DNA from: Natrialbaceae archaeon Tc-Br11_E2g14
Lineage (GTDB): Archaea; Halobacteriota; Halobacteria; Halobacteriales; Natrialbaceae
Assembly (NCBI GenBank): GCA_001564275.1
Contig: LKND01000002.1
Span: forward strand, 23,456-87,455
Reading direction: 5' to 3'
Length of the DNA stretch: 64,000 nt
Shown: one piece after another, positions 9,288-44,270 of the stretch
Layout of the letters: each line of letters opens with the position of its first letter
Numbering within the stretch: the stretch's first letter is position 1
Program-made: the position numbers and the translations under genes
The notes under the pieces: generated by a model
Told to the model about the DNA's origin: nothing
The model's input: only the letters and a program-made list of their open reading frames with translations
Database searches by the model: none

Positions 9288-9410
9288 TACTGTGTGGTCG
9301 TAGCCGGTGGTACGTAAGTGGCACGGTCTTGCAGTCGTCTGTTGCCATGACACACAGTCCGAAGGGACACAATCACGTCTCGTGGCCACCCTGGGCCCTC
9401 GAGCGATCGT

Positions 9411-9490
9411 GGGGTTTGCCGTCGCCTCTTCAGGGTGATTGTTGACCCGATACGGGCATCACCGGAAACCGGTTACAGCAAACCGTGTCA
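9411..9490 (+). repeat. F2 hairpin repeat, copy 1
   Basis: ggtttgccgtc...GGTGATTGTTGACCCGATACGGGCATCACCGG...ttacagcaaaccgtgtca; same layout as copies at 11504 and 31551. Confidence 0.75.
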
Positions 9491-9762: not shown

Positions 9763-9885
9763 TCACTACAGTAGCCACTGACCGTCGTTGCACAGACCCC
9801 CACGATACCATGGCGCAGAACCGGTTTGTCACCGGTTCTGCGCCGACTCGCTGTGAGGGGGCGTAAATCGGCTTCACTTGTCACT
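9763..9885 (+). repeat. F1 MITE-like nested palindrome, copy A
   Basis: gtagccactgaccgtcgttgcac...GGCGCAGAACCGGTttgtcACCGGTTCTGCGCC...gtgagggggcgtaaatcg; aligns without gaps to the reverse complement of 28003..28133. Confidence 0.85.
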
Positions 9886-11400: not shown

Positions 11401-11503
11401 CTCGGTCCAGTGACGACGGTCTCACCTGGGTCGTTCTCCTCACACCGTCGATCGTCCGCTATGGGGTCGGCGATCGGCACTACACAGGGGCAAGCCTCCC
11501 ACT

Positions 11504-11587
11504 CATACGGATTGCTGTAACTTTTTACCGGTGATTGCCGACCCGGTATGGGCAATCACCGGTAAGAGACTACAGTAAACCGTATCA
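11504..11587 (+). repeat. F2 hairpin repeat, copy 2 (best conserved)
   Basis: catacggattgctgtaactttTTACCGGTGATTGCCgacccggtatgGGCAATCACCGGTAAgagactacagtaaaccgtatca; 15-bp perfect inner arms (11525..11539 / 11551..11565) and near-perfect outer arms. Confidence 0.92.
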
Positions 11588-11833
11588 ATCGTCACTAGTG
11601 ACGGCCCAGTCGAACGTCAACGTAACCGTCTCGCGTTTCTTTTTCAACATCGGTGACCGTTCTCGCACGTCTACCTCGTAGGTCACCTCGTCGGCTGGAG
11701 AGAGCGTCACCTGCTTGTTGCCGACCGGAACGGTCGCCTGTCCATCACCGCGCATCTGGTGGGCAAGCTCCTCGAGTCGGTCTGCCACCTCGTCTGGGGG
11801 GAGCGTTTCCTTTGCGGTCGTCTTTTCGCCCAT
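11585..11833 (-). CDS. amphi-Trp domain protein
   Basis: MGEKTTAKETLPPDEVADRLEELAHQMRGDGQATVPVGNKQVTLSPADEVTYEVDVRERSPMLKKKRETVTLTFDWAVTSDD; start reassigned to 11833. Confidence 0.85.
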   Translation of the reverse strand: MGEKTTAKETLPPDEVADRLEELAHQMRGDGQATVPVGNKQVTLSPADEVTYEVDVRERSPMLKKKRETVTLTFDWAVTSDD

Positions 11834-12140
11834 GGCTGATCTCCCACCGACTGCCGACAAAAAACCCCTACCCGTATGCTGGTGTTGTCTCCCGTTATGG
11901 TGGCCTTTCTCGGGGCGACCGTTCCCGGATGCGTTCTCATCCGCCTCGAGGCCGACATCCGAATCGGTACCCCTCGTCGCGACGGTTTCCGTGCGGCGTC
12001 TCACACCGAGTGCGTCCTCGCCAGTCGCCACCGGTGGGATGCGGTGTCGGTGAGGACGCTTCGATCACTGCTTCCAGTGGAGGCGGAACCCTCTGGAGAC
12101 GAAATCTTCAAGATGCTGACTTGCAATCGCAGAGTAGAGC

Positions 12141-28002: not shown

Positions 28003-28133
28003 GTGGCTATAGTAACAATTGAAACGATTTACACACCCTCACAACGAGTCGGCTCAGAACCGGTGATAGACCGGTTCTGAGCCGTGGTATCGTGAGGGTG
28101 TGTGCAATGACTTTCAGTGGCTACTATAGTCAC
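28003..28133 (-). repeat. F1 MITE-like nested palindrome, copy B (131 bp, intact)
   Basis: Termini GTGGCTATAGTA / TACTATAGTCAC (11/12 inverted); arms acacaccctcac 28031..28042 / 28092..28103; inner 14-bp arms 28051..28064 / 28070..28083 with 5-nt loop. Confidence 0.92.
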
Positions 28134-30787: not shown

Positions 30788-30883
30788 GTGGCATCGTAGC
30801 CACTGGAAGTCATTGCATACCCGATCACCAGACGGGTCGGCGATCAAGGGGTGACTCGTTTCGGTTGGTACTGTGGGGTCACT
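30788..30883 (+). repeat. F1 MITE-like element, degenerate copy C
   Basis: gtggcatcgtagccactggaagtcattgcatacccgatcaccagacgggtcggcgatcaaggggtgactcgtttcggttggtactgtggggtcac; ends match copy B, centre diverged. Confidence 0.7.
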
Positions 30884-31382: not shown

Positions 31383-31550
31383 CGTCGATGCTGGCTCCGT
31401 GTACGGGGCCCGACGTATAATATGGGTGGTCTGTCGGCGACGCACTGGCCAGGCCTGAGCGCGACGCCGTCACGCTTCACTATCGTCGCTTCAGGGTCAT
31501 CGCTCACGCAGTGTGGGCACGCACCGGGAACACGGCAAAGGCACCCGACT

Positions 31551-31634
31551 CATACGGTTTAGTGTCACTGTTTACCGGTGAGTGCCGAACCCGGGCTGGC
31601 ACTCACCGGGAAGAGACGACACTAATCCGTATCA
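31551..31634 (+). repeat. F2 hairpin repeat, copy 3
   Basis: catacggtttagtgtcactgttta CCGGTGAGTGCC gaacccgggct GGCACTCACCGG gaagagacgacactaatccgtatca. Confidence 0.92.
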
Positions 31635-32003
31635 GGGGTTGAGCACGCCACCGACTGCCCCGGCGATGGCGCTCTCGAGTGCCAGCACGAAGGCGATGAC
31701 GACGGCTCCAAGGAAGATACCCGCACCCACGAGCGTCGAGACGGCCCCACCGGCGGGGCCGAGGGTCCAGCCGGCGACGCCGATCACGAGCGCCAGCAAC
31801 ACGCCGGCGATGATGCCCCCGAGCGCACCGGCGAGAAGGCCGTGCCAGGTTCCCGAGAGGAGGCCGCCACCGGCGAGATAGCCGGCCAGGAAGCCACCGA
31901 CGAGCCCCGCGGTCAGCTGTCCGAAGGGCGGGATCACGACACCCACGACACTGATGACGATCATGACGAGAAACCCGATGCCGACGGCACGCCAGTCTGT
32001 CAT
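31632..32003 (-). CDS. DUF5518-like 4-TM membrane protein
   Basis: MTDWRAVGIGFLVMIVISVVGVVIPPFGQLTAGLVGGFLAGYLAGGG...; glycine-rich TM helices. Confidence 0.85.
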   Translation of the reverse strand: MTDWRAVGIGFLVMIVISVVGVVIPPFGQLTAGLVGGFLAGYLAGGGLLSGTWHGLLAGALGGIIAGVLLALVIGVAGWTLGPAGGAVSTLVGAGIFLGAVVIAFVLALESAIAGAVGGVLNP

Positions 32004-42944: not shown

Positions 42945-42956
42945 ATCGGTGGGCAG

Positions 42957-43039
42957 TACGGGCTGCTGTCCCTTTTTAGCGGTGGTTGCCGACCCGGATC
43001 TGCGCAATCACCGTGCAGAGACGACAGCAGGCCGTCCGA
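42957..43039 (+). repeat. F2 hairpin repeat, copy 4 (diverged)
   Basis: tacgggctgctgtccctttttagcGGTGgTTGCcgacccggatctGCGcAATCACCgtgcagagacgacagcaggccgtccga. Confidence 0.7.
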
Positions 43040-43872: not shown

Positions 43873-44270
43873 TTTCGGGAACTTCCCTTTAAGTGGTTCT
43901 CGTCACAAGACGAAGATACGAGGCGCTTTTTCCGTGCGGTGGTGGGCAGACGACTACTGCTCGGTCGGCAGTATCCGAGTCGATACACGGCAACCATCCG
44001 CGTACTGGGACCCACCCTTGCCGGCTCACTCGAGTCGTTAGCCCGCGGTATCCTGACGTGTCCGCTCTCGTGGGTACCAGCCGCGCAGACGGTCTGCGGT
44101 GGCGTATTCCCGGTGATTGGCGACTCGGGACGGGAAATCATCGGTGAAAGATGGAAGGAAAGCGTACCGCTGGTGAATGTGTACCGACCCGGTCCCAACA
44201 GGAACCAATCGCCACCGACAGCACACCGATGACGACGAGACTAAGGGCGTGTGGTGTCTACGTTCGGCGA

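Follow-up and report, generated by a model that had tools for sequence, protein, structure and literature searches.

The DNA considered here (the window) is a stretch of 64,000 nucleotides from Natrialbaceae archaeon Tc-Br11_E2g14, in which copies of a hairpin-forming repeat lie exactly against the stop codons of unrelated minus-strand genes, and the question raised by this locus is how such an alignment arises. A sequence-only reading had proposed that the repeat supplies the TGA stop of three genes, as an element or RNA 3′-end module whose boundary would be set there by target preference, by selection on termination or by replacement of native stops. The evidence collected below makes it very probable that we are dealing with a palindromic, MITE-like, non-autonomous element that inserts into a palindromic TNA target with a 3-bp duplication, and that its position at stop codons reflects the target sequence combined with survival.

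On the minus strand, from 31634 to 31550, the first copy reads TGA-TACGG...CCGTA-TGA, in which a near-perfect palindrome of 79 bp (TACGG...CCGTA), with arms of approximately 34 bp, is enclosed by two identical triplets (Table 1). The TGA belongs to the host and recurs in direct orientation on either side of the repeat, outside it; the repeat does not supply the stop as had been supposed. The assignment of this TGA as the stop of a minus-strand gene holds for the Pfam-supported DUF5518 and Amphi-Trp genes, the former encoding a protein of 123 amino acids that covers positions 1-116 of the 116-position Pfam model. It is weakly supported for the third gene, which adjoins a degenerate copy and encodes 63 amino acids with only a sub-threshold Pfam match, making its stop less certain.

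Table 1. Copies of the palindromic element, adjoining genes and a second repeat family in the 64-kb window (strand "." denotes features without strand).
Feature	Position	Strand	Remarks
Palindromic mobile element, copy 1, 79 bp	31553..31631	.	arms ~31553-31586 and ~31598-31631; extended span 31552-31632
Left 3-bp target duplication, copy 1	31550..31552	.	TCA on the plus strand, TGA on the minus strand
Right target duplication, copy 1	31632..31634	-	TGA stop codon of the host's DUF5518 gene; ortholog stops coincide
DUF5518 gene	31632..32003	-	PF17647, full-length match
Element, copy 2	11506..11584	.	palindrome with extended span 11505-11585
Left target duplication, copy 2	11503..11505	.	
Right target duplication, copy 2	11585..11587	-	TGA stop of the Amphi-Trp gene
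Amphi-Trp gene	11585-12031	-	PF20068
Element, copy 3	about 9410..9487	.	degenerate (TGACACGG)
Flanking triplets, copy 3	9407-9409; 9488-9490		TCG (one base altered); TCA
Small membrane-protein gene model, 63 aa	9488..9679	-	weakly supported; stop 9488-9490
Old degenerate copy	42956..43037	.	approximate ends; without clear target duplication
Old degenerate copy	44087..44167	.	approximate ends; without clear target duplication
Second repeat family (TATAGTAGCCAGTGAAACGATGTACACACC...GTGTGCAATGACTTTC)	28087-28127	-	
Second repeat family	9770-9808	+	
Second repeat family	30796-30817	+	

Among 149 copies with clean boundaries, collected from this and related genomes, 137 carry the same TNA triplet on both sides, nearly always TGA or TCA, the middle bases of the concordant pairs being G and G in 69 copies, C and C in 67 and A and A in one; a TTA pair also occurs (L264). 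Only five of the 149 present discordant G/C or C/G triplets. A direct TNA repeat is not an inverted extension of the palindrome, which predicts the opposite flank pattern. The flanking bases themselves form a palindromic target, approximately CGAC-TSA-GTCG, and for two copies in a genome that is apparently Natronosalvus hydrolyticus (G004) the orthologous empty sites in the congener N. amylolyticus (apparently G001) are intact and hold a single TGA. A further site (L069) has AGA in place of the triplet. The TGA is, then, the 3-bp target-site duplication of a mobile element, and of the options offered by the sequence-only reading it is target preference that is borne out. At the N. amylolyticus site orthologous to L075 (L285), an apparent remnant of the element (TGATACGGTTTGCTGTCC...) follows the same stop, which suggests deletion of an ancestral copy. 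The second repeat family of Table 1 has many copies in the congener G001 (loci L285-L303), and one copy of the palindrome (L079) is apparently inserted at an internal TGA of that family.

The draft assembly of the source genome (3.16 Mb in 136 contigs) contains approximately 40 or more distinct copies of the 79-81 bp palindrome. The congeners G001, G003 and G004 give 8 to 28 matches each, where one copy may match on both strands, and G002, G006 and G007 give none at E<=0.001; this patchy presence counts in favour of a mobile element. In a wider sample of the order, 35 of 151 genomes and 19 of 56 genera have the end motif; a reversed control pattern produced a single match overall. The family extends across several haloarchaeal families, with end matches numbering up to about 180 per strand in a single genome. 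In a genome that is apparently Salinadaptatus halalkaliphilus (G018), identical element sequences occupy many unrelated sites, including loop-less 60-nt forms, and such identity shows recent movement. The loop-less palindrome derivatives (L110, L139, L143 and L153) retain intact TGA/TCA duplications. Searches of viral contigs and phage records gave no match to the element, and the papers searched yielded no description of this repeat family.

Several copies depart from the common form. One locus (L310) is a remnant of two fused element ends (TGATACGGTTTACTGTAATCCGTATGA), and the central loop apparently faces either way with respect to the asymmetric arms (L050 and L056, among other copies), which suggests loop inversion within the palindrome. 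L033, L073 and L074 carry TG on their left side and CA on their right, so that both ends read TGA inwards, and at L033 and L074 the right-hand gene likewise stops exactly at the element; these few cases may reflect chance, mutation or recombination between copies. At L307 (G018:C7 near 76334) an element end adjoins sequence resembling an IS200/IS605-type transposon end, possibly the result of an insertion into the palindrome.

The alignment with stop codons is beyond chance. With gene ends taken from a simple codon-usage gene caller, the TGA of a called gene lies exactly at offset 0 in 52 of the 137 concordant copies, against approximately 18-25 expected; three pairs of these copies are apparently orthologous between G001 and G004 and hence not independent. 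RefSeq annotation, which is independent of the codon-usage caller, also places copies at offset 0 in plasmids of Halomicrobium mukohataei, N. amylolyticus (a copy also counted in the 137) and Natrialbaceae archaeon AArc-T1-2. The target profile for the null was trained on non-stop copies only, an earlier null trained on all copies (39.5% expected at stops) having been rejected as circular. Under this null 17-19% of non-coding TGA targets are expected to be stops, so that the observed excess is about twofold. None of the 137 copies is spanned by a called gene, where about 65% of targets would be coding without selection. When the surroundings are divided into zones, 51 copies are found at stops (23.8 expected), 30 within 1-60 bp downstream of a gene end (19.3 expected) and a single one within 30 bp upstream of a start (11.3 expected). 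The other 85 of the 137 copies lie away from stops; 21 are placed between divergent genes, and all gene arrangements are represented.

Survival is the simplest reading of this zone pattern, gene ends being the safest targets. It is perhaps not the whole story given the twofold excess over the target-weighted null, and a modest extra preference for stops may exist. A bolder reading is a stop-codon safe-harbour strategy: an element with no detectable parent transposon would be moved by a transposase whose palindromic C-TGA-G target restores itself on insertion, and would favour stops beyond what survival explains; we regard this as rather unlikely. Active targeting of gene ends or stops by the transposition machinery, for instance through a DNA structure linked to termination and beyond any sequence preference, is distinctly improbable. 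The 52 of 137 copies at offset 0, set against the 17-19% remaining after target weighting, and the similar placement in other haloarchaeal families speak for such targeting, but the first 60 bp downstream are enriched as well and the enrichment of the stop class does not differ significantly from that of the downstream class (p=0.18). The gene arrangements around non-stop copies are, moreover, near expectation, and survival accounts for the absence of copies near starts and within genes.

Creation of stops by the repeat, through truncation of longer genes or substitution of native stops, can be judged from element-free relatives and is extremely improbable, even though a duplicated TGA is in frame one time in three. 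For eight stop-linked copies the two flanks were joined and searched for within the genus; six genes gave informative orthologs, named here from our reading of their C-terminal sequences where we call them RpoF-like, rubrerythrin-like, halocyanin-like or glutaredoxin-like. All element-free orthologs stop at the same codon for the Rpb4/RpoF-like (7/7), rubrerythrin-like (7/7) and DUF5518 (6/6) genes, as do six of seven for the gene at L164. For the halocyanin-like gene three element-free orthologs are exact and two homologs extend further; of seven orthologs of the glutaredoxin-like gene, two are exact and the others are displaced by one or two codons. The coinciding stops are usually TGA, and sometimes TAA or TAG. 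Most relatives without the element thus share the stop position, and the stops of the genes tested were neither made nor provided by the element; for these genes the idea that it replaced native stops is refuted. The full coverage of the Pfam model by DUF5518, and the presence of only about five called gene ends inside the element over all copies, likewise stand against truncation. By comparison of these six genes, the element landed on existing stops, its duplication keeping a TGA beside the coding sequence.

A functional RNA 3′-end module, acting as a terminator or mRNA stabiliser and held at stops by selection, is the remaining proposal, and its attraction is evident from the strength of the fold (-47.1 kcal/mol, z -7.3), the joint changes of paired arm positions between subfamilies and the excess of copies at stops and in the sequence that follows them. 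In stop copies, however, G-U mismatches (93) and A-C mismatches (92) are equally frequent on the sense strand, as a DNA palindrome would predict and selection acting on a transcript would not. The bias in arm orientation at stops is not significant (p=0.11), RNA pairing at the 3′ ends of genes shows no strand-specific conservation, and a scan of Rfam returned only chance-level matches to miRNA families, none credible. Copies away from stops form the majority and occur in all gene arrangements, and fewer than about 1% of genes would carry the repeat if some 3000 genes per genome are assumed. Selection on termination thus finds no support, and an RNA module is very unlikely; a terminator side effect at some genes is possible.

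The mobile-element reading may be put as a sequence of steps. A transposase provided in trans would join the TACGG ends to the palindromic target, duplicating the central TNA. Because haloarchaeal genes often end in contexts such as GAC-TGA, many of these targets are stop codons, and insertion there is harmless because the duplication restores the TGA in place. Copies entering coding sequence or the short stretch before a start would be lost. We infer both the transposase acting in trans and the purifying selection against other insertions.

A search for the mobiliser itself was negative in each of the sets covered. The element's ends enclose not one of the 30 PF01609 loci, and inverted end pairs 100-4000 bp apart yielded no autonomous partner. 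The intervals at L146 and L120 were rejected as autonomous elements, containing only ordinary host genes, as was a 2.2-kb end pair in G117, which proved to be two ordinary copies. Over eight genomes, only eight ends lack the inner arm of the element, where a pattern of slightly smaller breadth counted about 900 end matches, and no autonomous element was found among them. The parent transposon may have been lost, may reside elsewhere, or may share only shorter ends.

A simple target rule, a duplicated TNA that is mostly TGA or TCA, can thus bring a mobile repeat harmlessly to the exact ends of unrelated genes, and a perfect alignment with stop codons need not signify an RNA module. The family offers a test bed for locating the transposase that is missing and for studying how palindromes are maintained.

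Comparison with known systems places the element more closely. A DDE transposase is suggested by the 3-bp TNA duplication, a feature of TNA-type elements of the IS5 family; among these, IS1031-type insertion sequences combine the duplication with short inverted ends. The element shares both features, and the relation serves as a lead only, its ends being linked to no transposase here. REP sequences carry a GTAG or CGTC tag, and their transposition by RAYT (Y1) enzymes is not known to make a target duplication; the present element resembles REPs and REPINs in being palindromic, intergenic and of high copy number, but differs in its 3-bp duplication and TACGG ends. The small mobile repeats (SMR) of Haloquadratum walsbyi, described as lacking a target duplication (PMC3119063), are similar in size (about 80-110 bp), in their inverted terminal repeats, in having no known parent transposon and in their targeting preference, whereas the element described here duplicates 3 bp of its target. 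It displays several of the features that define MITEs, being short, non-coding and multicopy, with terminal inverted repeats and a target-site duplication, and haloarchaeal MITEs such as those of H. walsbyi (PMC3119063) share these features, with a short target duplication, and need a transposase in trans, as proposed for this element. Unlike them, it is almost entirely a single palindrome, and a parent transposon with matching ends was not found. Its characteristics place the element between the MITEs of haloarchaea and the Haloquadratum small mobile repeats, and it is a new family of a known kind of mobile repeat.
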